Assembly: GCA_017643395.1 (NCBI GenBank)
Contig: JAEPNP010000005.1
Location: 186,001 to 250,000, forward strand
Reading direction: 5' to 3'
DNA from: Rhodothermales bacterium
Lineage (GTDB): Bacteria; Bacteroidota; Rhodothermia; Rhodothermales; UBA10348
Length of the DNA stretch: 64,000 nt
This document shows, one piece after another, positions 3,100 to 40,280 of this stretch. Each line of letters starts with the position of its first letter. Within the stretch, counting starts at the first letter, position 1. Under the pieces are notes generated by a model. It was given only the letters and a program-made list of their open reading frames with translations. It did no database searches and was not told where the DNA came from. The translations under genes were made by a program, and so were the position numbers.

Positions 3100-4109
3100 T
3101 GATCCAAGATCGAAGTATTCTGATTACAGGAGGGACAGGTTCCTTCGGAAAAGCGTTTGTTAGGAGGCTGCTGAAGCAGAATCCCGACATACCCCGACTC
3201 GTCATTTACAGTCGCGACGAACTCAAACAGTACGAAATGTCGCTCGAGTTCCCGCCAGAGCGATACCCCGGAATCAGGTATTTCATAGGCGACGTTCGAG
3301 ACAAAGACCGTTTGCGTCGAGCTCTTGAGGGGATAGACACCGTCGTGCATGCCGCTGCACTCAAACAGGTGCCTGCGGCAGAGTACAACCCTTTCGAAGC
3401 AATCAAAACCAATGTTCTTGGGGCGCAAAACCTGATTGACAGCTGCCTGGAAGTTGGCGTCTCCAAGGTTGTGGCGTTGTCGACGGATAAGGCCGCGGCC
3501 CCAATCAATCTCTACGGTGCCACGAAGCTCTGTTCTGACAAACTCTTTACCGCGGCCGGCAACATTCGAGGCCAGCGTGATATCCGGCTAAGCGTGGTGA
3601 GGTACGGCAACGTCATGGGTAGTCGGGGGTCAGTCATTCCGTTCTTTCTCAAGCTTCGGTCTTCGGGGGTTTTGCCGATTACCGATCCCGAAATGACAAG
3701 GTTCAACATTAGCCTGGCCGAGGGCGTCGACATGGTCCTGTGGGCACATGAGACCATGAGAGGCGGCGAAATCTTCGTGCCAAAGATCCCCAGCTATCGA
3801 ATCACTGATGTCGCGACCGCTGTTGCGCCAAACTGTGAGCAGTCGATCATAGGTGTCCGTCCGGGTGAAAAGATCCACGAGGAGATGATCACAGCTAGTG
3901 ACTCCTTCTACACAGTCGACCTCGGGGACTACTTCGCGATTTTGCCGGTCGCCGGAAGGTTGAATCCCGACGACTACGCATCCGAAATGGGCGGATCGCG
4001 AGTGCCCCCTGGGTTCGCATACGACAGCGAATCAAACAAAGACTTCCTGTCAGTAGCGCAGCTGAGAGTCCTAATTAGAGAGCACGTCGACCCGACCTTT
4101 CGTGTCTGA
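3099..4109 (+). CDS. pseB: UDP-N-acetylglucosamine 4,6-dehydratase (inverting), PseB
   Basis: This extended SDR of 336 residues has the nucleotide-binding GGTGSFG at about residues 9-15 and the catalytic YxxxK as YGATK. PseB removes water from UDP-GlcNAc and inverts C5, giving UDP-2-acetamido-2,6-dideoxy-L-arabino-4-hexulose, the first step of pseudaminic acid synthesis. The Tyr distinguishes it from the PglF/WbpM type, which carries Met at this position, as the 23241-25199 gene does. The start is the ATG at 3099 overlapping the upstream TGA (TGATG). The following gene is PseC, which uses the product directly. CapE is a close relative and is the main alternative, given the CapF-like gene downstream. 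Confidence 0.9.
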   Translation: MIQDRSILITGGTGSFGKAFVRRLLKQNPDIPRLVIYSRDELKQYEMSLEFPPERYPGIRYFIGDVRDKDRLRRALEGIDTVVHAAALKQVPAAEYNPFEAIKTNVLGAQNLIDSCLEVGVSKVVALSTDKAAAPINLYGATKLCSDKLFTAAGNIRGQRDIRLSVVRYGNVMGSRGSVIPFFLKLRSSGVLPITDPEMTRFNISLAEGVDMVLWAHETMRGGEIFVPKIPSYRITDVATAVAPNCEQSIIGVRPGEKIHEEMITASDSFYTVDLGDYFAILPVAGRLNPDDYASEMGGSRVPPGFAYDSESNKDFLSVAQLRVLIREHVDPTFRV

Positions 4110-25224: not shown

Positions 25225-26292
25225 TCAGGGGACACGTTCCCCAATCGCCTCCCCCGCCGCATACCCCCGCGACGCCCGCCTCCCCACCACATCCCAATAC
25301 TCCAAACCCGAAATCCCATCCCCCGGACGCCGCGTAGTCAAATCCGCCGCCTCAATCACCGCCCCGGCCTCAATCGCCCGAGCCGCAACCAGACTCTTCC
25401 GCGCTACCGCGCGATTCGGCGCCTCACTCGCCTGGCACACCTTCTCCCCTGTGCCGAACGCGGTCTCAATGGCTCGCGCTCCCTCAACCAGAGCCGCCAG
25501 TTCATCCGGCTCCAGCGACGCCTTGTGATCCGGCCCCGGCAACTCCCGCGACAGCGTGAAGTGCTTCTCCAGCACCGTCGCCCCCAGCGCCACAGCCGCC
25601 AGACCGATCGATATCCCTTCGGAATGATCAGAAAAACCGACGGGAAGGCTGAAATGCCGGCCCAGGGTCTGCATGGCGCGCAGATTGATTTCTTCGGGCG
25701 ATGTGGGGTATTGCGTGGTGCAGTGCAGCAGAGTGACCCGGCCTTCCAGTCCGTCCAGCCGTTCAAAATCCACGGCACCGCGCGGCACGTCGGCAGATCG
25801 GTAGCCGAACGCCAGCACGCCCAGCGCCCTTTCCACCTCGGGCATATCCGCCATTCCCGTGGACAAAATGACTTCGCACCCCGCCTGGGCGGCCGCCAGC
25901 AAGAGGGGGCCATCGGTCATGTTGCCTGAGCCGATTTTGAGGGTGGAGGCACCCATGCGCTGCACGAGAAACTCCAGGCTGGGCATGTCGAACGGCGTCG
26001 ACAAGAAGTCGATGCCGCACTCCGCGCACGCGTCTCGCAGCACGAAATGCGCATCGTGCGGCAACTCCAGCGGTCGAAGCATATCCGCCTGCGAAACCGA
26101 ACTGCCGGTATTCTTCTTCTGGTACACCGCCATGGGCGCGCGCTCGGACACCAGCTCCCACACACGAAACGTTTGAAACTTGACGGCATTGGCCCCGCAC
26201 CGAGCCGCCACGCGCACCATTTCCAGCGCCCGGTCGGTCGACCCGTTGTGGTTGACGCCGGCCTCGGCGATGATGTAGGTGCTCGTGCTCAT
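25225..26292 (-). CDS. neuB: nonulosonic acid synthase, NeuB/LegI type
   Basis: The 355-residue product starts STYIIAEAGVNHNG, continues NAVKFQTFRVW, LKIGSGNMTDGPL, ILSTGMADMPEVE, LLHCTTQYPTSPEE, GFSDHSEGI and the active-site segment ELPGPDHKASLEPDEL. That last motif is the form of N-acetylneuraminate and legionaminate synthases and differs from PseI. A C-terminal SAF domain follows (ARKSLVAARAIEAG). It condenses an N-acyl mannosamine derivative with phosphoenolpyruvate. ATG 26292 was chosen over an in-frame start 48 bases upstream that would overlap the divergent gene. It is divergent from the NeuC-type gene with only about 29 bases between the starts. Confidence 0.9.
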   Translation of the reverse strand: MSTSTYIIAEAGVNHNGSTDRALEMVRVAARCGANAVKFQTFRVWELVSERAPMAVYQKKNTGSSVSQADMLRPLELPHDAHFVLRDACAECGIDFLSTPFDMPSLEFLVQRMGASTLKIGSGNMTDGPLLLAAAQAGCEVILSTGMADMPEVERALGVLAFGYRSADVPRGAVDFERLDGLEGRVTLLHCTTQYPTSPEEINLRAMQTLGRHFSLPVGFSDHSEGISIGLAAVALGATVLEKHFTLSRELPGPDHKASLEPDELAALVEGARAIETAFGTGEKVCQASEAPNRAVARKSLVAARAIEAGAVIEAADLTTRRPGDGISGLEYWDVVGRRASRGYAAGEAIGERVP

Positions 26293-26321
26293 GTCGCTTC
26301 CAGAATCCGCCCGAAAACTAA

Positions 26322-27521
26322 TTGACGGAGTCGCTTCCAACCCAGCGCCGCGTGGCCGTGCTGACCGTGGCCCGATCCGACTTCGGGATCTATCGACCGG
26401 TCCTGCGCGCCGTCCGCGAACACCCGGATCTGGAACTGCGCATTATCGCCACGGGCACACACCTGTCGGAGCGCCACGGCGCCACGCGCTCCGAAATCCT
26501 TGAGGCGGGATTCGAGATCGATGCGGAGATCCCCAGCACCGAAATCTCGGACGCCCCTGAAGACATCACCCGGGCGATGGGCACCATAACCCGGGGCATG
26601 GCCCAGGCCCTGGCCCGCCTCAAGCCAGACTGGCTGCTCGTGCTCGGCGACCGCTACGAGATGCACGCCGGCACCGTCGCCGCCCTCCCCTTCCGCATCC
26701 CGGTCGCCCATATTCACGGCGGCGAAGTCACCGAGGGCGCCTTCGACGATTCTCTCCGGCACGCCGTCACCAAGCTCAGCCACCTGCACTTTGCCACGAC
26801 CGAGGACTACGCCCGGCGGATCCGGCAATTGGGTGAGGAGGACTGGCGCGTGCACGCCGTCGGTTCTCCCAACCTGGACAACCTGACCCAGCTGGACCTG
26901 CTGTCGCGGGAGGAGCTGTGGGCGCACTACGCCTGGCCTGCGCACCCGACCAACGCCGGACGGGCGGATCGACCCTTTGTGATGGTGACGTTCCATCCGG
27001 TAACGCTCCAGTGGGACGAGTCGGAGCGACATCTGAAGGAACTGCTGGCTGCGGCGCGTGCGGTCGATGCGTTCTATGTGTTTTCCGGCGTCAATGCCGA
27101 CACGGGGGCGAATCCGCTGGCGGCTGCGGTGCATCGGTTTGTCAAGGCGTCGGTCGACTCGGCTGCGTTTGTCGAGAGCTTTGGCGTGACGCGCTATTTC
27201 AGCGCGCTCGCGTGCGCAGATGCCATGCTCGGCAACAGCTCGAGCGGGATTCTCGAGAGTCCGCTGTTTGAGCTGCCTGTGGTGAACGTCGGAGATCGCC
27301 AAAAAGGACGTATCCGCGGCAATAACGTGATCGATGTGCCACCCGAGCGCGGGCGAATCGAAGCAGCACTCCGAAGGGCACTCACGGCCGGCTTTCGCGC
27401 CGGCCTGCGCGGCATGCACAATCCGTACGGAACCGGCGGCGCGTCTGAGGCCATCGCGGAGGCCATCGCCCGTACACCGATTAACCAGCGACTCATCCAG
27501 AAGGCCTTCATCGACCGATGA
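26322..27521 (+). CDS. neuC: hydrolysing UDP-GlcNAc 2-epimerase, NeuC/LegG type
   Basis: The 399-residue GT-B-like protein has VAVLTVARSDFGIYRPVL, LVLGDRYEMHAGT, AHIHGGEVTEGAFDDSLRHAVTKLSHLHFATTE, TFHPVT and GNSSSGILESPLFELPVVNVGDRQKGR, all hallmarks of NeuC/NnaA. It produces the free mannosamine-type sugar used by NeuB. The start is a TTG at 26322; a GTG at 26352 is an alternative and would give a slightly longer intergenic space to the divergent neuB. The 3' end overlaps the following formyltransferase gene (ATGA), suggesting co-translation. Whether the substrate is UDP-GlcNAc (sialic acid) or a 6-deoxy diamino sugar (legionaminic acid, LegG) cannot be told. Confidence 0.9.
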   Translation: MTESLPTQRRVAVLTVARSDFGIYRPVLRAVREHPDLELRIIATGTHLSERHGATRSEILEAGFEIDAEIPSTEISDAPEDITRAMGTITRGMAQALARLKPDWLLVLGDRYEMHAGTVAALPFRIPVAHIHGGEVTEGAFDDSLRHAVTKLSHLHFATTEDYARRIRQLGEEDWRVHAVGSPNLDNLTQLDLLSREELWAHYAWPAHPTNAGRADRPFVMVTFHPVTLQWDESERHLKELLAAARAVDAFYVFSGVNADTGANPLAAAVHRFVKASVDSAAFVESFGVTRYFSALACADAMLGNSSSGILESPLFELPVVNVGDRQKGRIRGNNVIDVPPERGRIEAALRRALTAGFRAGLRGMHNPYGTGGASEAIAEAIARTPINQRLIQKAFIDR

Positions 27522-28174
27522 GAATCCTCTTCATAGCCAAGCGCGGCGAATCGTCCGTAGATGCGGCGATTTCGTTTTGCCGTGAGCGTGGGGCCGAGGT
27601 GGATGTGTTTTTGCACGACTGGGGCGAGTCGATTCCCGAGGCGTGCCTGCGCTGGACGGGCGATCTGATCGTGTGCTATCTGGCGCGGTGGATCTTGCCG
27701 GCGTCGCTGCTGGATGCGGCTTCCCTGGCTGCGATCAACTTCCATCCGGCCTCTCCGGAGTATCCGGGGGTCGGGTGCAACAACATGGCGCTGTACGACG
27801 AGGTGGATGAGTTCGGGGTGACCTGCCACCACATGGCGGCGAAGGTGGACAGTGGGCCGATCGTTGCTGTGCGTCGATTTCCCGTGGCGGAAAACGACAC
27901 CGTGGCGAGCCTGCTCGAACGGACATATGCCGAATTGGCTGTGCTTTTCCGGGGAGTTATGGCACCGGTGTTGGCCGGAGAAGGCCTGCCCGCGTCATCG
28001 GAAACCTGGGGTGATCGCCTCTTCACACGGCGGGATCTGCAGGAACTGGAGCGCATCACTCCGGACATGGAGACCGATGAAATCCGGCGACGCGTGCGGG
28101 CTACCACCTTCGGCTCGTGGCGGCCCTACGTGGAGTTGGGCGGATTCCGTTTTGAGGTGGTTGACCCGGACTAG
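27518..28174 (+). CDS. formyltransferase-family protein coupled to NeuC
   Basis: The 218-residue product has a Rossmann start (RILFIAKRGE) and the formyltransferase core INFHPASPEYPGVGCNN, with Asn and His of the triad, and KVDSGPIV with the Asp. It lacks the C-terminal tRNA-binding domain, so a sugar amine is the likely acceptor. The C-terminal 50 residues (ATTFGSWRPYVELGGFRFEV) resemble the tail seen on sugar formyltransferases. It overlaps neuC by 4 bases. Its stop codon (28172-28174) shares the tetranucleotide CTAG with the stop of the opposing sulfatase gene. Confidence 0.75.
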   Translation: MRILFIAKRGESSVDAAISFCRERGAEVDVFLHDWGESIPEACLRWTGDLIVCYLARWILPASLLDAASLAAINFHPASPEYPGVGCNNMALYDEVDEFGVTCHHMAAKVDSGPIVAVRRFPVAENDTVASLLERTYAELAVLFRGVMAPVLAGEGLPASSETWGDRLFTRRDLQELERITPDMETDEIRRRVRATTFGSWRPYVELGGFRFEVVDPD

Positions 28175-29670
28175 CGCACTCCGTATCGGGCACCATGCGC
28201 GCGCACGGCGGCCCGCTTGGCGTCAAACCGGGTGCGCAGCGAGTCCAGCGTGGCCTGCGCGGCCGGGTGGCGTGCCAGATTCGTGAATTCCCCCGGGTCG
28301 TTGAAATGATCGTATAGCTCCTCGTTCTCGGCACCTGGCGCATCTCCCCATCGGCTATAGCGATAGCGATCCGTGCGCAGCGCCGCGCCCCCGTTTGTGA
28401 TGATGTAGGCCTCGCCACCCCCGTGACTGCCCGGTGCCTGAAGTGCGTGCGAGAAGTCCCGCCCCTGCACCGTTTCCGAAGCGTCCAGCCCGGCAGCCGC
28501 CGCAATAGTCGCATACAGGTCGATAAGTTCTGTGATTCCCTCCGCGCGCCCCTGGCCAACGGCCGGGCCAGCCACAATCAGCGGCACGCGCGTCGCGTCT
28601 TCCCACAGCGAGAGTTTCTGCCAGGCGCTGTGCTCTCCCAGGTTGAATCCGTGATCAGAGACAAAGACGATGAGCGTATTGCCGGCCTGACCGGACTGCT
28701 CCAGCGCACGGAGAATGCGGCCCACCTGCTCGTCCATGAATGACACGCTGGCATGGTAGGCGGCGACGGCCTTGCGCTGTTCGGGCTCGCTCATTCGGTA
28801 GCGCCGGGCGTTGCTCATGCGCTGCGCCTGGGTTGGCACGTCCCTGAGGTCGCCGGCGGGAACGTGCGGCAGCGGCGCGTCCGCGTCGGGATGCATGCGG
28901 GCGTGCCGCTCCGGGTAGATCAGCGGCACATGCGGTCGCACCAACCCGACGGCCAGGAAGAAGGGCGCGTCCGGCTTTAGCCGCGTACGGTTCGTGGCAC
29001 CGTCCGGAATGCGGCCCGTGCGGCTCTGGATGATCGCGATGGCCTGGTTCGCGGCCAGCACATCTGCCTGTGTGGATTCGTCGCCGTCCGGCAGCACCAT
29101 CCGGGCAAAGTTGCTGCCGTAGTGCGGGCCTCTGGAGAGAGTCTCGAGCGTGCCCGGCGTGAGCGTCTCGGGAGCGGTCAGATTGACTGCAAAGTCCCAG
29201 GCGTCGGGGTCGTCCGATCCGCTTTCCCCGCGCTCGATCCCGCCCGGCACGCCCATATGCCAGATTTTGGAGACGCGCGCGGTGTAATAGCCTTCGTCGC
29301 GGAATAACTGAGGGAGCGATGGGTGCTCTACCAGCCCCGGCGTGGTCTTGTGGTTGGCGTTCTCGAATCCGTTCGTCGTCACGCCGATGGACTCCGGATA
29401 CATCCCGGAGAGAATCGAGGCGCGCGAAGGACCACAAACAGGAAATTGCGCATATGCCCGGGTGAATGTCACTCCGCGTGCGGCCAGACTGTCCAGGTTC
29501 GGCGTGTGCACGGGGATGTGCGGCGGAGCGTAGGGGCCGATGCGCGTGTTGAGGTCGTCGGCGATGATCAGCAGGACATTCGGCCCCGCGGCGGAATCCG
29601 GCGCTGGAGCGGGCGCAGCAAGCACGAACCCTGCTGTAAGTACAAACGCTACGAGTCTAACGCTTCTCAT
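28171..29670 (-). CDS. secreted sulfatase (iduronate-2-sulfatase/arylsulfatase family)
   Basis: The 499-residue product starts with a signal peptide (VRLVAFVLTAGFVLAAPA) followed by PNVLLIIADDLNT, which supplies the metal-binding aspartates. CGPSRASILSGMYP contains the C-x-P-S-R sulfatase signature whose Cys becomes formylglycine, and VSDHGFNLGEHSAWQK gives the second metal-binding DH. Type I sulfatases of this group remove sulfate esters from glycans in the periplasm or outside the cell. It converges with the formyltransferase gene and is followed 51 bases upstream by a minus-strand membrane protein gene. No maturase (anSME) is in the window. It might act on host or environmental glycans rather than on the cell's own. 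Confidence 0.88.
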   Translation of the reverse strand: MRSVRLVAFVLTAGFVLAAPAPAPDSAAGPNVLLIIADDLNTRIGPYAPPHIPVHTPNLDSLAARGVTFTRAYAQFPVCGPSRASILSGMYPESIGVTTNGFENANHKTTPGLVEHPSLPQLFRDEGYYTARVSKIWHMGVPGGIERGESGSDDPDAWDFAVNLTAPETLTPGTLETLSRGPHYGSNFARMVLPDGDESTQADVLAANQAIAIIQSRTGRIPDGATNRTRLKPDAPFFLAVGLVRPHVPLIYPERHARMHPDADAPLPHVPAGDLRDVPTQAQRMSNARRYRMSEPEQRKAVAAYHASVSFMDEQVGRILRALEQSGQAGNTLIVFVSDHGFNLGEHSAWQKLSLWEDATRVPLIVAGPAVGQGRAEGITELIDLYATIAAAAGLDASETVQGRDFSHALQAPGSHGGGEAYIITNGGAALRTDRYRYSRWGDAPGAENEELYDHFNDPGEFTNLARHPAAQATLDSLRTRFDAKRAAVRAHGARYGVR

Positions 29671-30383: not shown

Positions 30384-31049
30384 ATGATGGAAACCTCCCG
30401 GCAAATAGTCATCTGGATGGTCGAAGACGACGCGGACTACCGCGCGACCATGTCCTCCGTCCTGCAGCTGTCCCCGGAGACATCGCTTTCCCGCTCGTTC
30501 GGGTCGTGCGAGGAGGCGTTTGCCTTTGTGGCCTCGAAGGAATTCGCGGAGGCCGATGAGCCTGTACCGGATGTCATGCTCCTGGATGTCAACCTCCCCG
30601 GCGCTAGCGGCCTCGAGAGCATCACGCAACTGAAGAACGAATTGCCGGGCATGGCCATCGTCATGCTCACCATCCGTAACGAAACGGAGACCATCTTCTC
30701 GGCCTTCCGGTTTGGCGCGTCGGGCTACCTGCCCAAGGACTCGCCCATCGACGAAATCCTGGACGCGGTGCGCGAGGCGAGCCGGGGAGGAACACTAATG
30801 CCCGCCCTGGTGGCCGGCGAAGTGCTCTCCTTGCTAAGGGAGGCACCGGAAAAGGACTACGGCCTGTCAGACCGCGAAACCGATGTATTGCGGGAGATGA
30901 CGCTCGGGAAGAGCCAGCAGGCCATCGCCGATGCGCTCTTTGTGAGCCGGCACACCGTGAACACCCACATCCAGCATATCTACGAAAAGCTGCACGTGCA
31001 CTCAGGGATCGAAGCCGTGGCGAAGGCGCTGCGGGAGCGCATTGTGTAG
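30384..31049 (+). CDS. LuxR/NarL-family response regulator
   Basis: The 221-residue product has a receiver domain (residues 7-125) with the acidic pair in VEDDADYR, the phospho-acceptor Asp68 in MLLDVNLPGASG, the Thr in VMLTIRNE and the Lys in YLPKDSP. A C-terminal LuxR-type helix-turn-helix runs from about 155 (LSDRETDVLREMTLGKSQQAIADAL). The start is ATG 30384 (or 30387); the frame is open upstream to an ATG at 30264, but that adds 40 residues unlike any receiver. It is the first of a four-gene unit ending in a histidine kinase of the matching HisKA_3 type. The gap to the next gene is 19 bases. Confidence 0.9.
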   Translation: MMETSRQIVIWMVEDDADYRATMSSVLQLSPETSLSRSFGSCEEAFAFVASKEFAEADEPVPDVMLLDVNLPGASGLESITQLKNELPGMAIVMLTIRNETETIFSAFRFGASGYLPKDSPIDEILDAVREASRGGTLMPALVAGEVLSLLREAPEKDYGLSDRETDVLREMTLGKSQQAIADALFVSRHTVNTHIQHIYEKLHVHSGIEAVAKALRERIV

Positions 31050-31068
31050 CCCCCAGACCCCTAAATCC

Positions 31069-31905
31069 ATGGCACAAGACAAATGGAACATCAGCTACCG
31101 GCAATTTCGCACGGTAGCCTGTGTGTGCAACGCGAACAATGGTGGACTAGCAGACCGCATCCTGGACCATGAGGATGGCAGCGATATCGCCAAGGCCGCG
31201 GTCGCCGATCCGAATAGCCTCATCGAAGTGCTGCGGAAAGTCGCTACAGCCAAAGGCAAGGATCTCCAATGGGCGGCCGACAGCCCGGATCTGAAGTTCT
31301 ACCACGGCGGAACGGGCGACATTGGGGCGGGCAGGGATGGCGACTTCGTGCTGACCGAGGACGCGATGTACCTCCCTTGGCCGTTGCCTCTTTCGAACTT
31401 GCCGGACGAGGCGGTCGATACAGATCAGCCAGAGAGCATCCCCTGGGAAGAACTCCAGCGCAAGCGGGCCGCCCTACTCGAGAAAGGCCTCGACTTCACT
31501 GACGCACCGCTGCCCGATCTGCAAACCACTCCGCACATCATTTTCGTGCGGGACCTCGACGGAATCATCGACGCCACCGCAAGAATTGCACGAGCTCATG
31601 CGAATGGAACGGCACCAGGTAGCATCGTAGGAGACGACAAGAAGTTTTTCGAGGATCCAACCTTCCTGATCCATGGAAACCTTGAGAAAGGGTACATAAG
31701 GTCTTCAGCCGTCTACCTATCGCCAACTGATTCTGGGAATTGGAAGGTCTCGCTCCCAGTCGAATGGAAGAGTGGCATCAGTGACGGAAAGATCGATTGG
31801 CCGGAAAAACCCGATCCGGATTTTCCGCTGGTGCCTCTCGACGACCTGGACGAGAAGGACTTCACCGCCACCTGCCACGCCTTCTGGAACGAGCCGCCCG
31901 AATGA
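31069..31905 (+). CDS. unrecognised 278-residue protein, partner of the YcaO enzyme
   Basis: The product is soluble, acidic in its middle and C-terminal parts, and has no signal peptide or membrane segment. Features seen include a Cys pair in VACVCNANNGG near residue 17, a KFYHGGTGDIGAGRDGDFVLTED segment near 75, and a Pro/Asp-rich tail ending CHAFWNEPPE. Weak similarity of AKAAVADPNSLIEVL to RiPP leader peptides was noticed but is not convincing. It overlaps the YcaO gene by 4 bases (ATGA), so it is likely made in step with it and could be its substrate, partner or delivery protein. The function is unknown. Confidence 0.6.
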   Translation: MAQDKWNISYRQFRTVACVCNANNGGLADRILDHEDGSDIAKAAVADPNSLIEVLRKVATAKGKDLQWAADSPDLKFYHGGTGDIGAGRDGDFVLTEDAMYLPWPLPLSNLPDEAVDTDQPESIPWEELQRKRAALLEKGLDFTDAPLPDLQTTPHIIFVRDLDGIIDATARIARAHANGTAPGSIVGDDKKFFEDPTFLIHGNLEKGYIRSSAVYLSPTDSGNWKVSLPVEWKSGISDGKIDWPEKPDPDFPLVPLDDLDEKDFTATCHAFWNEPPE

Positions 31906-33068
31906 GCCTGCAGTCGGCCCTCCGCACGTTCGGCGGAGGGCCGCGGATTTCCGCATCCGAACGCATCGGCTCCCGAATCCACATTCTGGACCTTGAATGC
32001 GTTCACGGCGGAAAGCGCCACCGCGCCCAGGGCAAGGGACTCACACATGCCGCGGCCCTCGCAAGCGCCCAGGGCGAGCTCCTGGAACGCCTCTGTGCCA
32101 GGGCGCCGGAGCGGCCGCTCGAATGCGCCCCGATCGAGGCCGCCGGTCCGGGCGCAATTGATCCCCGATCGACGCTTCTCTTCAGCGAGCGCCAGTACCG
32201 TGATCGCCGCCCCCCGCGAGAAGCGCTCGCCATCGGGGACGTGCTTGTTCCGGATCCGATCACCGCGCAGACCAAGTTCGCCTGGACGGGCGCATCGCAC
32301 TACCAAATCGGGCAAATTCGCCGCGTGGCGGCGGCAGCGACCTACTTCGGCTTCCTGGCCGAGGGCGCCGCGCACTGCATCGCCGACTCGAATGGGATGG
32401 CGGTCGCCGAGACCCGATCGGACGCGGTGCGGCACGGGCTACTCGAACTCGTCGAGCGCGACGCCGTCGCCATATGGTGGTACAATCGCCTGCTGAGGCC
32501 GCCGGTACCCGCGGCCTGGACGGATTCCGCTGACTGCCGGGCGCTGCTCGAGGACCTGTCGGATTTCGGGCCTGAATTGCTGGACCTCACGCACGATCTG
32601 GCCATCCCTGTCGTCGCCGCCACCGGATTCACGCCACACGGTTTTCTGGCGATGGGCTTCGGCGCGCACCCGGACCCCGCCTCCGCCGCACGCTCGGCCT
32701 TGCTGGAATTCGCCCAGTGCGTCGTCAACCGCGGAAAATCGCCACCTGGCCAATCGCCGGTGAGAGCTTCTGCATGGAGCCGGCGGGACGATCAGCCCTT
32801 CCTGCATGCGCAGCCCGAGGCGGCCCGGGCTGACCGTGGACCCGTTTCGGACCCCGCCGAGCATTTGGCACGACTCGGCCTGGACGTTATCGTGGTGGAC
32901 TTCGAAAGCCCCCTCGAAATATCGTGCGTGAAGGTCGTCGTCCCCGGTCTACGCCCCTGGTTCAGGAGACTCGCGCCGGGACGGCTGTACGATGTGCCCG
33001 TCTCGCTCGGCTGGCTGTCCCGCCGGCTGCCCGAAGAAGCGCTCAATCCGGCCGCATTCGACTTGTAG
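31902..33068 (+). CDS. YcaO-family ATP-dependent enzyme (azoline cyclodehydratase-like)
   Basis: The 388-residue product has the YcaO ATP-binding pattern: GKGLTHAAALASAQGELLERL, the central CIADSNGMAVAETRSDAVRHGLLELVERDAV, and ARSALLEFAQC. Its C-terminus, VPGLRPWFRRLAPGRLYDVPVSLGWL then NPAAFDL, matches cyclodehydratases that make thiazole or oxazole rings in peptides. YcaO enzymes activate a backbone amide by phosphorylation. No E1-like partner, dehydrogenase or obvious precursor peptide is present, which is unusual for an azole synthase. The genes on either side are an unknown protein and a two-component system. Start ATG 31902 overlaps the upstream stop. Confidence 0.85.
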   Translation: MSLQSALRTFGGGPRISASERIGSRIHILDLECVHGGKRHRAQGKGLTHAAALASAQGELLERLCARAPERPLECAPIEAAGPGAIDPRSTLLFSERQYRDRRPPREALAIGDVLVPDPITAQTKFAWTGASHYQIGQIRRVAAAATYFGFLAEGAAHCIADSNGMAVAETRSDAVRHGLLELVERDAVAIWWYNRLLRPPVPAAWTDSADCRALLEDLSDFGPELLDLTHDLAIPVVAATGFTPHGFLAMGFGAHPDPASAARSALLEFAQCVVNRGKSPPGQSPVRASAWSRRDDQPFLHAQPEAARADRGPVSDPAEHLARLGLDVIVVDFESPLEISCVKVVVPGLRPWFRRLAPGRLYDVPVSLGWLSRRLPEEALNPAAFDL

Positions 33069-33073
33069 CTCTC

Positions 33074-36000
33074 TTGGCCCTCTTGGAGCTGGTCGCCTCG
33101 GTGGAGGTCGCGGCGCAGGCGCCATCGCCCGAACCTGACCCGCCGCGATTTCGATCGCTCACCCTGGATGACGGCTTGCCGAACTACACGGTCATGAGCC
33201 TGCTGCAGGACGGCCCGGGCTACATGTGGATCGGCACGCAGATCGGTCTTTCACGGTTTGACGGGCGTCATCATCGCATTTACCGGGCGTCTTCGGCGCA
33301 GGCGGATTCGCTGGGAGACGGGTTTATCACATCGTTGGCACGAACGACCGACGATTCCGCGGCCGTCTGGGTCGGTACGAAGCTGGCCGGTGTGCATCGA
33401 TTTCGCCCTGCTGACGACGCGTTTGAGCGCATTCCGGGGCCCGATGAGGCAGCCGCCCGTCACGTGTTGAGTCTTCTGGATGTCGACGGCATTTTGCTGG
33501 TAGGCACAGACGGGGCGGGCCTCCTGACCCTGTTCCCGGGGGCCGATTCCCTGCGCGGCCCGCCCTCCCCGCTGGGTCGGAGCGTTTCCGGTTTTTCGGT
33601 CGTTCCGCAGGCGCCAAATCTGGTCCTCGTACTGTCTGAGCTCGGCCTCGCAGCACTCCGCCTGCCCGACATGGTCCCGGTGCCGGTACAAGTCTCGGGG
33701 GCAGATCTGTCGCGGCCCGTTTCCATGGCCTGGCTGTCTCCGGAGCGCGCCGTTATCGCCACAGACTCCGGCCTGAAAGAAGCGGAAATCCGCATCTCAG
33801 GCACCGAATTGACCCTGCATATTCAACCGGTCGCGGGCATTTCGAGCCAGGATGTGCGCAGTGTGCTGGTTCGAGACTCTGAAGTGTGGGTGGGCATGGG
33901 CGACGCCGGGGTGGATGTACTGGACGCGGAGCTGACGGTCACGCATCGCCTGTCGGCCACCGGTCCGGAGAGCATCGCCGATGATGCGATTCAGACGCTT
34001 GCGCTCGACCGCGAGGGCTTGGTCTGGATTGGAACCTGGGCCAACGGATTGTCCATCGAACGACCCGCCCGTCGATTCGCCCAAGTCCACCACGCCGCCG
34101 ATAACCCGGAGGGACCACCTCCGAGCAACGTATTCGGCATTCTGGAGGACAGGAATCGGCCGGGCACGATGTGGGTCGGATTCATGTATGGCGGTCTGGC
34201 GCACTGGGACCCGAAGCGCGGTGTGTTTGAGAAACGGTATGCAGACCCGGACCACCCGCTCAATTCGGTGTCTGCCCTCGGCTATGACCACGACGGCGGG
34301 CTATGGGCCCTCGGGCGCAGGAACTCTGTCTTCAGGCTGCGTGCTGACGGCAGCATCCTGGACCGCGTGGCGCTCGATTTGCCCCCCGACAGCGCCGACG
34401 GCTGGGTCACGTTCCTGCACCCGCGACGAGCTGGCGGAGACCTCCTCATCGGCACGCGCGGGCATGGGCTCGTAGTGTTTGATCCCGTGCGCGGCGTTGT
34501 TCGGCATCGCTACGGCCGGCGGGGAGCGCTCAGTGCCCATCGCTTGGATTCGGACGACATCTGGCAGCTTGTCGAGGAGGAGGACGGCACGTTGTGGGTG
34601 GCCACGGGGCTGGGCCTGGCGCGGATCGGGCCGGATGGCGCGGTCTCTGCATTCCATGCACACGACCCCGATGATCCGGAGTCCTTGAGTGGGCCCCTGG
34701 TCAGTTCCGTGGTGAGGGACGCGCACGGCATGCTCTGGTTGGGCACGCCGGACGCCGGTCTGAATCGATTTGACCCGACCTCCGGCAGGGTGGTGCGGCT
34801 GTCGCAAGAGCACGGATTACCCAACTCGGACGTCGGCGGAATCGTGCCTGACGAGTCCGGTCGACTCTGGCTGTCCTCCAGTCGTGGACTCGCCGTCCTG
34901 GACCCCTCGACGCTGGAAATCGCACGATTTGGCCCGCTGGATGGCGTGTTGGAGCAGACGTTTCAGTATCGCGCGCGCACGCGCCTCGCCTCCGGGCACA
35001 TCGCTCTCGGCGGGCCAAACGGAACACTGACCGTGTTCGATCCAGCCGGCATTGTGGTCGATTCGACCCCGGCCATGGCGCGTGTGACCGACATTCTGGT
35101 TGGAGGCCGCAGGGTGCCGCCAGGCGCGTGGAGTACGATCTCCCTCGGCCACCAGGAGGGCGATGTGCTTTTTCGCTTTTCGGACCTGTCCTTCGCCACG
35201 CCCGAGAAGGTGCGGTACCGGGTCAGACTGTCGGGCGGCGAATCCGGCTGGACACCGGCGGACGATGCGGAAGTCGGATTTGCCCGGCTGGGTCCCGCTT
35301 CCTACCGGTTTGAGGTAGTGGCCACCAATCGGGATGGCCTGTGGGGCGCTCCCGGGCCTGCCGTCGAACTGACCGTGCGCCCCCCGTTCTGGCAAACATG
35401 GTGGTTCAGTGGGTTGATGCTGGCGCTGATCGCAGGAATGACGGCGGCCGCGTTCCAGTACCGCATCCGCCAGATCAGGCGCCTGGAGGCGGAGCGCAAC
35501 CGCATCGCCAACGACCTGCATGACGATCTCGGCAGCAAGCTGGGTTCACTTGCTTTGCGGCTGGAGCTGCTGGCGCGGCGGGTCCCCGAGCAGCAAGAAT
35601 CACTGACCAGCCTGGCGAGTTTTTCTAGGGGCGCGATTCAGAACCTGCGCGATACCATCTGGCTGGTTGCCACCGGACACGGCGCGGTGCGGGACCTGCG
35701 CGAGCGCCTGGAGCATGCCGCAGGGGAGATCCTGGTCGATATCCCATTCGCGTTTGAGGTGTCGGGCGGTCCGATGACCCAGGAGATGGATCCGTTGCGG
35801 CGGCGCGCCCTGTTGCTGGCGGTTCGGGAGGCGCTTCACAACGTCGCCAAACACTCAGGGGCGGATCGCGTGGATGTGGGCATGGAGGTGTGGCCCCGGC
35901 GCGTTCAGGTTACGGTCCGGGACAATGGGCGCGGGATTGCGGCGGCGGCGGAGCGGGCTGGCCGAGGGATTGCGCCTGCGGTCAGGCGGACCGGGCGGGG

Positions 36001-36103
36001 GATGCACACCATGGTTGACCGCGTGGAGGCGGCCGGCGGTGAGACGGAGGTGTCTACTGAGGCGGGCGTGGGCACGGTGGTGCGGATTTCGATGCCCATT
36101 TAG
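33074..36103 (+). CDS. two-component-propeller sensor histidine kinase
   Basis: About 1010 residues: a hydrophobic signal-like segment, a long periplasmic region of Reg_prop propeller repeats (MWIGTQIGLSRFDG, MWVGFMYGGLAHW, LWLGTPDAGLNRFD), a Y_Y_Y domain, and one membrane helix (SGLMLALIAGMTAAAF). These are followed by a HisKA_3 domain with the phospho-His in NDLHDDLGSKL and an HATPase domain (ALHNVAKHSGA, VRDNGRGI, GRGMHTM). The start is uncertain. No ATG or GTG lies between a GTG at 32924, inside the YcaO gene, and TTG 33074, and the best signal peptide would begin at an ATT at 33056. It is the probable cognate kinase of the LuxR regulator. Confidence 0.88.
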   Translation: MALLELVASVEVAAQAPSPEPDPPRFRSLTLDDGLPNYTVMSLLQDGPGYMWIGTQIGLSRFDGRHHRIYRASSAQADSLGDGFITSLARTTDDSAAVWVGTKLAGVHRFRPADDAFERIPGPDEAAARHVLSLLDVDGILLVGTDGAGLLTLFPGADSLRGPPSPLGRSVSGFSVVPQAPNLVLVLSELGLAALRLPDMVPVPVQVSGADLSRPVSMAWLSPERAVIATDSGLKEAEIRISGTELTLHIQPVAGISSQDVRSVLVRDSEVWVGMGDAGVDVLDAELTVTHRLSATGPESIADDAIQTLALDREGLVWIGTWANGLSIERPARRFAQVHHAADNPEGPPPSNVFGILEDRNRPGTMWVGFMYGGLAHWDPKRGVFEKRYADPDHPLNSVSALGYDHDGGLWALGRRNSVFRLRADGSILDRVALDLPPDSADGWVTFLHPRRAGGDLLIGTRGHGLVVFDPVRGVVRHRYGRRGALSAHRLDSDDIWQLVEEEDGTLWVATGLGLARIGPDGAVSAFHAHDPDDPESLSGPLVSSVVRDAHGMLWLGTPDAGLNRFDPTSGRVVRLSQEHGLPNSDVGGIVPDESGRLWLSSSRGLAVLDPSTLEIARFGPLDGVLEQTFQYRARTRLASGHIALGGPNGTLTVFDPAGIVVDSTPAMARVTDILVGGRRVPPGAWSTISLGHQEGDVLFRFSDLSFATPEKVRYRVRLSGGESGWTPADDAEVGFARLGPASYRFEVVATNRDGLWGAPGPAVELTVRPPFWQTWWFSGLMLALIAGMTAAAFQYRIRQIRRLEAERNRIANDLHDDLGSKLGSLALRLELLARRVPEQQESLTSLASFSRGAIQNLRDTIWLVATGHGAVRDLRERLEHAAGEILVDIPFAFEVSGGPMTQEMDPLRRRALLLAVREALHNVAKHSGADRVDVGMEVWPRRVQVTVRDNGRGIAAAAERAGRGIAPAVRRTGRGMHTMVDRVEAAGGETEVSTEAGVGTVVRISMPI

Positions 36104-36110
36104 AGGGGCC

Positions 36111-37385
36111 TCACATCATCATCGGCGACTCCGTCCCTCCCCTCCCAAGCAACACGTCCAGCTTTTCCAACTGCCCCCTCGCAGAGTCCATCATCCAGTC
36201 CTGGTGTGGAAGGGCCTCGAGTTTCTGGCGGATGAGACCCTCGCTCGGGTCCTGCAGTCCGTGTAGACTCTCCAGCAGCGAAGCACCGCGCCAAAAGAGC
36301 TCGGGACTTCCGTCCGCTGGATCGGCGTCCAGAACATCCTTTGTAAGGTCCCGCACCCTCGACCAGGCCTCCACAGCCCGAAACTGATCGACTTCGGCTT
36401 CTCTCGGGTCAGGCGAGAATTCCTTTGCCCTCAGGCGGAGGAGATAGGCGTAGTTGACACCGTTGTAGTGGTCGTCGCGAAGCACGAAGCCGCGTCGGTA
36501 GGAGGTGATAGCGTGCTCAAGATCCTGCATACGCTCGTCATGGGACCGGTCCGGGTGTTCTGCGAGACGCTTGTGAATGGCGCCCCAGATCCCCAGGGTC
36601 TCCGGATCGGTGCTCCCTGCAGGGTCCAGCCGGTCGCTGAGTACCGTCCTGGCCTCCAACAGATCGGCGACAGGAGCCGGCTGCCCGTCGCGTTCGTTCC
36701 GCTTGTAGAGCGCCAGCGCCAACTGTTGCGAAATCCACGGGTCGTTGTCCGGCTGTTCACGCAGCAGCTCGACCACGCTGGTCCAGTCCCCCTGGGCCTT
36801 GAGCTCATCGGTCCGCGCCATGATTCCGGCCAGTGATTCCCGGGCGGGAATTGTGTCATGAGGCCCACCGGGAGGAGGGCCGCCTTGCCACGACGGCGGA
36901 ATGAGCTCCTCTCCAAGCAGCGTGTAAATCAAACTGTCCGGCTCGTTCGCCCGGCGTGCTTCGCGGCAAACATCCGCCAACAGGGGCCGGAATCGGTCCA
37001 CCTCGTCGGCGTCCAGTGCCTTCCCGTGATGGGAGTAGGTGAAGAACCGCTCCTGGCTCAGGTTGAAGGGGATCTTGGTGTCGTCAGCCGCAATAACGAT
37101 CGTCGCCTTCGGCCGGAATGCCATGCGAACACCCAGTTCGTACATGGCATTCGCGTTAAGCGTGGTCAGGTCTGCGATAACGAGGTCGGCATGGAAGAGC
37201 CAGTAGTACATCTGTCGCTCGATTCGACCGGGGCGAATGACCTCATCGGACCGCACCACGGAAAAGCCCGCCGCCTCGGCCGCCGGCTTGATGAGCTGGC
37301 GGTACGACTTGTCCAGATCATACTCCTTTCCGGTATCCGGATCGGACTTGGTCCGGTAGCCCATAACCACGAAGCAGGTCGCCAT
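36111..37385 (-). CDS. TPR-containing protein with N-terminal nucleosidase-like (DUF4071/TRAFs-binding type) domain
   Basis: The 424-residue product opens with CFVVMGYRTKSDPDTGKEYDLDKSY. A Rossmann-like region carries LVIADLTTLNANAMYELGVRMAF, in which the Asn-x-x-x-x-Glu-Leu-Gly resembles nucleoside 2-deoxyribosyltransferase and TIR-like folds. From about residue 180 it is helical with TPR-like repeats (WTSVVELLREQPDNDPWISQQLALALYKRN). This is the architecture of proteins annotated as DUF4071 or TRAFs-binding, several of which occur in bacterial conflict systems. It faces away from the patatin operon across a 185-base region with repeat elements, and may be the sensor. Its own enzymatic activity is unproven. 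Confidence 0.7.
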   Translation of the reverse strand: MATCFVVMGYRTKSDPDTGKEYDLDKSYRQLIKPAAEAAGFSVVRSDEVIRPGRIERQMYYWLFHADLVIADLTTLNANAMYELGVRMAFRPKATIVIAADDTKIPFNLSQERFFTYSHHGKALDADEVDRFRPLLADVCREARRANEPDSLIYTLLGEELIPPSWQGGPPPGGPHDTIPARESLAGIMARTDELKAQGDWTSVVELLREQPDNDPWISQQLALALYKRNERDGQPAPVADLLEARTVLSDRLDPAGSTDPETLGIWGAIHKRLAEHPDRSHDERMQDLEHAITSYRRGFVLRDDHYNGVNYAYLLRLRAKEFSPDPREAEVDQFRAVEAWSRVRDLTKDVLDADPADGSPELFWRGASLLESLHGLQDPSEGLIRQKLEALPHQDWMMDSARGQLEKLDVLLGRGGTESPMMM

Positions 37386-37454
37386 CGTTCTCCCCTCTTC
37401 CTATCCGGAAAACCGTACGAACCGTGATCTCGATGCGCAAGCCGGCGCGCGCCG

Positions 37455-37562
37455 AATAGTGTCTCCCTGCCTGTTCGATAGTGTAAAACTGCCATGCACA
37501 TTAGTGTCTGCACGCCATTGCGCCATGACGGCACGGGCAAATAGTCTCTCCAGGACTACAAG
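37455..37562 (+). promoter_or_regulatory. array of four direct-repeat elements in the divergent patatin/TPR promoter
   Basis: Elements start at 37455 (AATAGTGTCTCCCTGCC), 37477 (GATAGTGTAAAACTGCC), 37500 (ATTAGTGTCTGCACGCC) and 37540 (AATAGTCTCTCCAGG); the first three are 22 and 23 bases apart. The consensus is close to WTAGTGTCTnCCTGCC. The last copy lies about 10-30 bases before the patatin start. The same element precedes the response regulator at 30224-30269. These are likely operators for a common regulator. Confidence 0.5.
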
Positions 37563-37570
37563 AGACGGCG

Positions 37571-38701
37571 ATGGCGCTTCTGGACAGACTGGACTCCGAG
37601 GCCCCCAAACGAATTCTGTCCCTGGACGGCGGAGGCATACGGGGCATTCTGACTCTGGGCTTCCTGGAGCGTGTGGAACAGATTCTGAAGGAGCGAGCCG
37701 ACCGGAATGACTTTGTACTGGCCGACTACTTCGACTTGATCGGCGGCACCTCGACCGGGTCCATTCTTGCCGCCGGACTGTCCACCGGGATGCACGTAAA
37801 GGACCTCATCGCCCTGTATGAGGACCTCGGCAGCAAGGTCTTCCGGGGCTCTGCACTCAGAGGCGGACTCCTGTTCGAGAAGTTTCCTTCCGGCCCCTTG
37901 CGCCGGGAGCTCACCAGGCAGTTCGGCACCATGCAACTGAGCGATCCCGAGATTCGCACGGGCTTGCTCGTGATGACCAAACGGTTGGACTCCGGCAGCG
38001 CCTGGCCGATCCACAATCATCCGCGGGGACGCTTCTACAGTGGAGCTCCCGTAGCGGGCACGGTACCGTTTCCCAACAAGGACTTTTCCCTGGCTCAAGT
38101 GGTTCGGGCCTCAACTGCGGCTCCTTCTTTCTTCGAGCCGGAAGACATCATTGTCGGCGATCACCAGGGCCGGGCCTTTTCGGGCAGCTTCGTCGATGGC
38201 GGCGTGAGCCCACACAACAATCCTGCGCTTCAGCTGCTCATGTTGGCAACCATGAGCGGACATGGATTCGGATGGACGATGGGACCTGAGGACCTGTTTA
38301 TGCTCTCCCTCGGCACGGGCTCGAAGGTGCCTGGTGCTTCCGCCAAAGGCGTTTCGGCGTCGGTGGCCATCAAAGCGCTCAAATCCCTCATGGATGACTG
38401 CGCGGAACTGGTGGAAACCATCATGCAGTGGGTGTCCGAGTCGCCCACCGCCCGCCCCATTGACCTGGCCGTCGGGGACCTGGCCGGCGAATTGCTCGGA
38501 GGGCGTGAGCTGCTGACGTACGTGCGCTACAACGTCTTCTTTGACGTCGAGTGGATGCAGACACAGCTGGGCGTGATGAACGTGACCGCCACCCAGCTCT
38601 CGGAGCTGAGCAAGATGGACGAGCCCGACCACGTACACCAGTTGCTCCATCTCGGCCGGATTGCCGCGCACAAGCTGGTAGATCCAGCCCACCTGCCCTG
38701 A
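37571..38701 (+). CDS. patatin-like phospholipase
   Basis: The 376-residue product is a complete patatin: oxyanion-hole DGGGIRG at about residues 19-25, nucleophile Ser61 in GTSTG, and catalytic Asp209 in VDGG. It has no signal peptide or membrane helix, so it acts in the cytoplasm, presumably on inner-membrane lipids. The closest role model is the CapV-type patatin effector of CBASS, where membrane damage kills infected cells; no cyclase gene is seen here, so control would have to differ. It is the first gene of a four-gene operon; the TIR gene follows after 5 bases. A metabolic lipase is possible but would not explain the neighbours. Confidence 0.85.
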   Translation: MALLDRLDSEAPKRILSLDGGGIRGILTLGFLERVEQILKERADRNDFVLADYFDLIGGTSTGSILAAGLSTGMHVKDLIALYEDLGSKVFRGSALRGGLLFEKFPSGPLRRELTRQFGTMQLSDPEIRTGLLVMTKRLDSGSAWPIHNHPRGRFYSGAPVAGTVPFPNKDFSLAQVVRASTAAPSFFEPEDIIVGDHQGRAFSGSFVDGGVSPHNNPALQLLMLATMSGHGFGWTMGPEDLFMLSLGTGSKVPGASAKGVSASVAIKALKSLMDDCAELVETIMQWVSESPTARPIDLAVGDLAGELLGGRELLTYVRYNVFFDVEWMQTQLGVMNVTATQLSELSKMDEPDHVHQLLHLGRIAAHKLVDPAHLP

Positions 38702-38706
38702 ATCCG

Positions 38707-39363
38707 ATGTACCGCGAGATCTTCGTCAGCTACAGCAGGAAGAACAAGGGCCTCATGAACGATGTGGTCCGGCATCTGTCCGGAGGCACGCACGGCATGG
38801 TCTGGTCCGACGAGGATATCGCCGTGGGGCAGGAATGGGACGTTGAAATCGGTGAGGCACTGGCCGACTGCCGCATGGCGGTCCTGCTCGTATCCGGGTA
38901 CTGGCTGTCTTCCGAATACATCCTGAAGAGGGAGGTGCCCTTGATCCGGGAGTTGCGGGGAGATGGCGGACTGGTTTACCCCGTGCGCGGCGGGTCTGCC
39001 GACTGGGCGCGACTTCCCTGGCTTGCGGCCCTGCAATGGTTTCCGCGCGAAGGCCCGGTGCTGTTGGAGCTCAAAGGTCATGCTCGGGATCGCGTGCTCG
39101 CGGAGATGGCGGCCGATGTGAGGGTGCAGCTGGCCAACACGCCCGCCAGGGCGACCCGTCGCTGGAGAGAAAGCGCGATCCGGCCAGTGCCGATGTGGTC
39201 CTGCCTCCTGCTGGTACTTCTTGTACTGCTCAAGAACGTGCTGGCCGGCGCAGATCCGACTACCAGCGAGGTCGTGCTGTGTCTTTCGCTGGCGACTGCC
39301 GGCTCGCTGTACTACGTCTTTGATCGATTCACCACCATTTTCAATGCCGCGCGACTCCGATAA
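38707..39363 (+). CDS. TIR-domain protein with C-terminal membrane segments
   Basis: The 218-residue product begins with REIFVSYSRKNKGLMND and continues MVWSDEDIAVGQEW and VLLVSGYWLSSEYILKREV, the typical TIR fold. Glu76 in KREV, aligned with the WxxxE/SxWCxxE region, is the probable NAD-cleaving residue. Residues 165-210 form two membrane helices with a basic segment before them, so the TIR domain is tethered to the inner membrane. TIR domains of bacterial defence systems degrade NAD or make signalling nucleotides. ATG 38707 is chosen; earlier in-frame starts lie inside the patatin gene. It overlaps the next small gene by about 20 bases. Confidence 0.85.
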   Translation: MYREIFVSYSRKNKGLMNDVVRHLSGGTHGMVWSDEDIAVGQEWDVEIGEALADCRMAVLLVSGYWLSSEYILKREVPLIRELRGDGGLVYPVRGGSADWARLPWLAALQWFPREGPVLLELKGHARDRVLAEMAADVRVQLANTPARATRRWRESAIRPVPMWSCLLLVLLVLLKNVLAGADPTTSEVVLCLSLATAGSLYYVFDRFTTIFNAARLR

Positions 39364-39643
39364 TTTTCTGACCCGCATGCCGCGGTCGGCTCGTCAGAGC
39401 TTCTTTGTTTTCGTGGCCTGGGTGGGCCTGATGGGAGTGACTCTGATCGTCGTGGTTCTGTGGGCCTCGTCCACGCTTCAGACGGCCGCGAGCGTAAACG
39501 ACGAGCATACCACGGAACGCATCAACGTCCTGACGGCAAAGGTGGACTCGATGAGCACCCGTCTGACGGCGCTTGAGAGAGCCAGGCCGCGCGGCGGCAC
39601 CCCCCGAAACCCAACCGTGCGCCGTCCGAATGGCTCACGCTAA
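39344..39643 (+). CDS. small membrane protein with coiled-coil
   Basis: The 99-residue product (ATG 39344; a Met at 39377 is the alternative) has one membrane helix (residues 19-43, FFVFVAWVGLMGVTLIVVVLW). A helical heptad-like stretch follows (TTERINVLTAKVDSMSTRLTALERA), then a basic Pro-rich tail. No family is recognised. It overlaps the TIR gene at its start and the next gene by 14 bases at its end, so all are translated together. A scaffold or membrane anchor joining TIR and downstream protein is plausible. Confidence 0.6.
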   Translation: MPRDSDNFLTRMPRSARQSFFVFVAWVGLMGVTLIVVVLWASSTLQTAASVNDEHTTERINVLTAKVDSMSTRLTALERARPRGGTPRNPTVRRPNGSR

Positions 39644-40280
39644 ATATGATCTGCGCGTCTTCGTCAACTGCCCGTTCGATGACGCTTACACCGAGATGTT
39701 CGAGGCGCTGATCTTCACGGTTACCGCCTGCGGACTGGTCGTGGTCAGTTCGAAGGCCGTGCTCAACGGTGCCGAAGACCGCATGTCCAAACTGAAGGAC
39801 CTGATCGGCTCGTGTCGCTACGGCATTCACGACATTTCCCGCACAGACCTGGACCTCGACACGGGCCTTCCGCGGTTCAACATGCCGCTGGAGTTGGGCA
39901 TGTTTCTCGGTGCCCGGTCCTTTGGGGGTAAGCGCCAGAAGCAGAAGTCCTGCGCCATCCTGGACGTTTCCGAGTATCGATACCGCGACTTCATCTCGGA
40001 CCTGGCCGGGTACGAGGTGATGGCGCACGGCAACAGGGTCGACCAGTTGATCCGACAGGTCCGGAACTGGATTCGTGCACTTCCGGATCCAGACCGTACC
40101 AGGGTTCGGGGCTGGGAAGTGATCTCGAAGCTGTACACCCAGTTTCGTGAGGACCTGCCGGTCATCTGTAGAAATCTCGGTCTCGAACCGGACACCCTGG
40201 GGTTTCACGACTTCGTCGCCATCCTGGTCGACTGGCTTCGGGACCCGCCCGACCCTCCTCCTGCCGAAAACGATCGGTGA
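39630..40280 (+). CDS. TIR/nucleoside-deoxyribosyltransferase-like cytosolic protein
   Basis: The 216-residue product begins YDLRVFVNCPFDDAYTEMFEALIFTV, continues KLKDLIGSCRYGIHDISRTD and FNMPLELGMFLGAR, then CAILDVSEYRYRDFISDLAGYEV. The N-x-P-x-E-L-G segment parallels N-A-N-A-M-Y-E-L-G in the divergent TPR protein, suggesting the same Rossmann fold with a glutamate in the base-cleaving position. Proteins of this type are found with HEPN, TIR or STAND genes, but I cannot name the exact family. No membrane segment. The C-terminal tail is proline-rich. A cytosolic nucleotidase or NADase effector, or a nucleotide sensor, is inferred. Confidence 0.65.
   Translation: MAHAKYDLRVFVNCPFDDAYTEMFEALIFTVTACGLVVVSSKAVLNGAEDRMSKLKDLIGSCRYGIHDISRTDLDLDTGLPRFNMPLELGMFLGARSFGGKRQKQKSCAILDVSEYRYRDFISDLAGYEVMAHGNRVDQLIRQVRNWIRALPDPDRTRVRGWEVISKLYTQFREDLPVICRNLGLEPDTLGFHDFVAILVDWLRDPPDPPPAENDR

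Follow-up and report, generated by a model that had tools for sequence, protein, structure and literature searches.

Azoline-forming YcaO enzymes usually require an RRE partner, and the RRE/E1-like half normally presents the leader peptide to the YcaO. In LynD, TruD and MusD, the C-terminal domains act on Cys, Ser and Thr residues of peptides. We analyzed a window of 64,000 nucleotides (the whole stretch introduced above) in which a YcaO gene lies in an operon with a propeller sensor kinase, a LuxR-type regulator and a protein of 278 residues (U278, or U). The catalytic domain of this YcaO aligns with those of LynD, TruD and MusD (residues 34-385), with the ATP-site motifs and the C-terminal region in NP retained. 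It differs from them by the lack of the N-terminal RRE/E1-like half, by its C-terminus (NPAAFDL), and by its location in a two-component operon where no short precursor was found.

Others systems with a standalone YcaO have been described. The bottromycin YcaOs function without a partner (PMC8442711, PMC7136475). The clusters of the RiPPs bottromycin and streptamidine (PMC8442711) resemble the window locus in having an unfused YcaO next to an unclassified protein, whereas in the window no short precursor was found, the genes belong to a kinase/regulator operon, and U also occurs without a YcaO nearby. The YcaO of E. coli directly modifies the folded protein uL16 (PMC13063428); it is thus a standalone YcaO acting on a protein and not on a short peptide, as is only proposed for the window. 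However, it belongs to another YcaO group, with a thioamide chemistry and a ribosomal target. Finally, the hybrid and classical Reg_prop two-component systems of Bacteroidota combine a propeller kinase with a LuxR-type regulator, and have many paralogues in the window genome, but the operon in the window also carries U and the YcaO.

Operon organization and conservation

The first-pass annotation had placed a response regulator, an unknown protein, a YcaO and a propeller kinase in this order, with gaps of 19, -4 and about 5 bases. This description matches the ORFs, coordinates and spacing in the window (Table 1), the intergenic distances being 19, -4 (ATGA overlap) and 5 bases. The kinase most likely starts at the TTG codon at 33074. 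The Reg_prop, HisKA_3 and HATPase_c domains, together with the LuxR-type receiver regulator, assign the pair to the propeller two-component systems.

Table 1. Genes of the operon in the window.
Feature	Coordinates	Strand	Evidence
NarL/LuxR-type response regulator, 221 aa	30384..31049	+	Response_reg 8e-18, GerE 1.4e-16; 69% identical copy in the congener (L019 8030-8692)
U278 (U), acidic soluble protein, 278 aa, putative YcaO substrate	31069..31905	+	No profile match; congener homologue; motif relatives in L048 and L059; composition
YcaO, LynD/TruD-like cyclodehydratase domain, 388 aa, without RRE/E1-like domain	31902..33068	+	PF02624 6e-60; TIGR03604 4e-47 but below cut-off; LynD 1.8e-41; motifs
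Periplasmic beta-propeller sensor histidine kinase (Reg_prop, Y_Y_Y, HisKA_3, HATPase_c)	33074..36103	+	Domain profiles; congener copy 35% identical over 1037 aa

In a congener (G450, Bacteroidota bacterium, MAG, JAJCYP010000102.1), U, the YcaO and the propeller kinase occur in the same order as in the window, with identities of 25-30% for U (BLASTP E 4e-12), 37-39% for the YcaO and 35% for the kinase. The congener regulator, 69% identical, is located about 2.6 kb downstream of the kinase. This contig starts just 5' of U, in an assembly with a contamination rating of 5%. The operon is not due to a chance arrangement, because the congener retains the order of these three genes with the regulator nearby. 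U was found together with a YcaO in two genomes only, those of the window and of the congener; the pairing of the two genes pointed out at first reading is real and conserved in one congener.

At 25225-29670, on the 5' side of the operon, the window has genes that read by eye as a NeuB-like synthase, a UDP-sugar epimerase-like and a formyltransferase-like protein, and a sulfatase gene (PF00884). The adjoining genes at 36111-40280 look like a defence patch: a TPR-S protein (minus strand) with a TIR-like stretch, a patatin phospholipase that hits PADLOC effector models with E 1.3e-41, a TIR protein similar to ThsB (7e-11), and a protein of 235 aa weakly resembling CAP12-TIR.

A YcaO without its usual partners

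The match to PF02624 (6e-60) and the ATP-site motifs SxxxExxER (55-63) and ExxQ (ALLEFAQ, 266-272) identify the enzyme as a member of the YcaO superfamily. Among solved structures, LynD, TruD and MusD have the most similar YcaO domains (E 2e-41 to 2e-37, residues 34-385 aligned). No domain is fused to the 388-aa enzyme, the leader-binding/E1-like half of these relatives being absent. The curated cut-off of TIGR03604 (SagD family, 219.25 bits) was reached neither by the window YcaO (160.9 bits) nor by that of the congener (213.4). The window YcaO also stayed below the cut-offs of the thioamide family TIGR03266 (84.8 vs 365 bits) and of the RimO-linked/uL16 family NF040716 (27.9 vs 700 bits).

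The YcaO gene is single-copy in the window genome (G000) and in G450, and no TOMM E1-like partner over the TIGR03882 cut-off was found in either whole genome. The sole TIGR03882 match in the window genome is far below the cut-off and at the level of control genomes such as E. coli; therefore no leader-binding partner of the usual type was detected in trans. Among the ORFs flanking the operon, we found neither an RRE or E1-like gene nor a short precursor rich in Cys, and in a six-frame check around the operon, no Cys-tailed short ORF in coding orientation was convincing as a precursor. The lack of usual partners and precursor reported in the first-pass annotation is thus confirmed beside the YcaO and, for E1-like proteins over the cut-off, genome-wide.

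Properties and distribution of U

U278 has a pI of 4.5 and three cysteines, at positions 18, 20 and 269. Profile searches against Pfam, NCBIfam, PHROGs and PADLOC gave no match. Beyond its own genome, U was not detected in plasmids, in viral contigs or among 296 and 394 genomes from the phylum, and the search of genome contigs gave the congener only. Weak matches of the U profiles in the class (E 0.004-0.1) were judged to be chance. Structure prediction from the two sequences gave a mean pLDDT of 34 and 31. Both proteins have a C-terminal tail bearing Cys and Thr, TATCHAFWNEPPE in the window and SCTAKCDNFWSSMQGK in the congener; the window tail contains one Cys and is not a typical core. A likeness of U to NHLP-type leaders was seen by eye only, with no library match, and was discarded.

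The closest relative of the window regulator outside the genus is found at locus G413:C3. At this locus and at G412:C1, in two genomes of another family, a protein of 265 and 252 aa, respectively, lies directly 5' of the kinase, followed by the regulator. There was no YcaO within the 18 kb fetched around these two loci, and G412 was absent from the matches of the class-wide search for YcaO. U278 showed no significant alignment with the 265/252-aa proteins in shuffle, BLAST-type and profile tests, and a global profile test gave scores near zero and was uninformative. U281 as a homologue of U278 was not significant by alignment, and was retained on motifs and synteny only. Three motifs in the same order are nevertheless common to four U proteins, [ILV][SH][YW]xx[FY]xxxxC in the N-terminal part, [LF]x[LIM]x8WP in the middle and CxxF at the C-terminal end. 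Only these four proteins, out of the 784 ORFs in the fetched loci, contain the three motifs together, the motifs having been fitted after viewing them. This co-occurrence is suggestive of relatedness. We assigned to the U family the proteins combining the three motifs in order, drawn post hoc, with a place 5' of a propeller kinase or of a YcaO-kinase pair, and the link across families, made of three short motifs and gene position, is likewise suggestive. With one genome searched per species, U was thus seen in three genomes of the class besides that of the window (n = 4). At L059 (9040-9057), the U of G412 ends at a TAG codon, and the G413 copy runs seven residues further.

In the kinase tree, which is independent of the motifs, the kinases of the four U loci cluster in a single clade (99/97), and the regulator tree agrees weakly (61/59). 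U occurs without a nearby YcaO but with the same kinase/regulator clade, and so it seems to be inherited as a component of the signalling cassette, with the YcaO as an apparent addition in one branch. As for the role of U as a partner of the YcaO, suggested at first reading, U remains the best substrate candidate, but it is not a dedicated YcaO partner, being also present at kinase/regulator loci with no YcaO nearby.

YcaO, kinase and regulator in the order

The propeller kinase, the LuxR regulator and a YcaO are found together at 7 of the 14 YcaO loci examined (window, L019, L020, L021, L023, L024, L032). With about 15 propeller frames in the window genome, roughly 3% of genes are expected near one, and the probability of at least seven linked loci among 14 is about 6e-8 under independence of the loci, an assumption that does not hold fully. 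Mapped on the YcaO tree, the linkage label needs 2 changes against 5.0 on shuffled labels, and 4 of 500 shuffles were as low.

Among the five linked loci without U, four (L020, L021, L023, L032) have an E1-like part over the TIGR03882 cut-off, and at L024 an N-terminal half precedes the YcaO in a fusion protein. In at least three of the five, a recognisable E1-like gene or domain is combined with a candidate short Cys-tailed precursor, located upstream where the E1-like part is present. These candidates, revealed by the search for short precursors in relatives suggested in the first-pass annotation, end in TNQCEPCLTDAPGHTA (L020), THGTCESCPPVC (L023, with an AGGAG ribosome site) and TTCTWTCQIPGYTA (L024); no convincing candidate was found at L021 and L032. 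The ending PG[HY]TA is common to the candidates of L020 and L024, which belong to different families. An ordinary azole gene set in relatives had been regarded at first reading as an argument against an unusual role of this YcaO. This is in part what the order presents, since its YcaO-kinase-regulator loci have an E1-like partner and candidate precursors, a fairly ordinary azoline set. The kinase/regulator pair is thus repeatedly joined to a product gene, either a short peptide with azoline enzymes, or U with or without a YcaO. A kinase/regulator pair was noted in one RiPP cluster in a survey of Bacteroidales (PMC10352776). The literature that we searched, largely without subscription papers, contained no report of YcaO linkage to a histidine kinase or response regulator, whether two-component or propeller.

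Proposed role of U and alternative explanations

We hypothesize, with a probability of about 0.4, that the locus is a three-part signalling cassette (U, propeller histidine kinase and LuxR-type regulator) with a recruited LynD/TruD-type YcaO acting on U. U is the sole product-like gene beside a partnerless YcaO, is ATGA-coupled to it and has a tail with Cys and Thr; it is therefore taken as the substrate. The YcaO would have been recruited into the cassette, its RRE/E1-like half lost or never had, and would act directly on the neighbouring, translationally coupled U by backbone cyclodehydration at a Cys/Thr-bearing end, either the C-terminal TATCHAFW tail or the N-terminal Cys18/20. Expression of both genes would be controlled by the kinase and the regulator, and an envelope signal connected with the product may be perceived by the kinase propeller. 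We infer in this way the substrate, the modified residue, the azoline chemistry and the control circuit. Autoregulation of such clusters by their own kinase/regulator pair is as simple as product sensing by the kinase, and it is quite unlikely that ring modification of the cassette protein U by the partner-free LynD-type YcaO tunes or creates the signal for the propeller kinase. Against U as the substrate counts the fact that its N- and C-terminal Cys are conserved also at loci without a nearby YcaO; Cys conservation is therefore not explained by the YcaO. The single Cys of the atypical window tail, the RRE partner usually required by azoline-forming YcaOs, the non-significant alignment of U across families and the co-occurrence of U and YcaO in just two genomes also weigh against it.

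U occupies the slot just 5' of the YcaO, which is the place of the E1-like gene in L020, and could be a very divergent leader-binding partner (a cryptic RRE/E1-like protein such as streptamidine AmiB), the true substrate being a short peptide from another locus. Although no domain is recognised in AmiB, it was modelled on TruD residues 4-315 (PMC8442711), and the sizes are comparable (278 aa for U vs about 315). We consider this unlikely, as U gave no signal when compared with RRE/E1-like profiles from the order (several column shuffles scored higher than its 15.4), has no conserved CxxC zinc pairs, and occurs at L048 and L059 without a YcaO nearby. A short precursor may also have been missed, near or far in the genome, as short ORFs are easily overlooked and precursors may be unlinked; with the negative six-frame check around the operon and no leader-binding partner found, this is highly improbable.

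Doubtful too is a degenerated azoline cluster that has lost its RRE, E1-like gene and precursor. U would then derive from the ancestral kinase cassette and have no relation to the function of the YcaO, which would be a remnant or act on an unlinked target. Such a history is consistent with the E1-like genes and candidate precursors retained at the other YcaO-kinase-regulator loci, with U found without YcaO, and with the fast divergence of the YcaO (37-39% identity in the congener vs 69% for the regulator). However, the ATP-site motifs are intact in both enzymes, and an open YcaO at the same place with a coupled start in two diverged congeners argues for selection. The YcaO could also target the kinase or the regulator, or else a protein of the cell outside the cassette, for instance a ribosomal one, and YcaOs modifying cellular proteins are known (McrA, uL16; PMC13063428). 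But these enzymes belong to other groups (TIGR03266, NF040716), with cut-offs far above the scores of the window YcaO, and paralogues of the kinase and of the regulator occur without YcaO, which makes this very unlikely.

If U is the substrate, the locus would offer a LynD-type heterocyclase that modifies a protein of nearly 280 residues with no help from a leader-binding partner, within a two-component system. Azoline YcaOs would then have a broader substrate range than is known, and backbone modification would be tied to signalling in a testable way. Even if it is not, the linkage of YcaO, propeller kinase and LuxR regulator in this order guides the finding of peptide clusters and of their regulation.

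Other YcaO loci

At L031 (12997-15303 and flanks), an E1-YcaO fusion is accompanied by several tandem precursors sharing a PqqD-like N-terminus, a RRRFVRKIGLVGSLTLLLP stretch and Ser/Cys/Asp-rich repeats. The YcaO-kinase-regulator locus of L020 adjoins a GEVED-like protein of 683 aa (1906-3957), with a 907-aa relative in G401 (L042 4054-6777); only 2 of 245 genomes have this protein, both with a linked YcaO. A QFR N-terminal motif that it shares with U was discarded as evidence, the motif being internal in the L042 protein. At L023 (7468-9376), the YcaO of G401 is apparently separated from the E1-like ORF by a frame change; it has no usual GKG/ExxER motif and is possibly degenerate.
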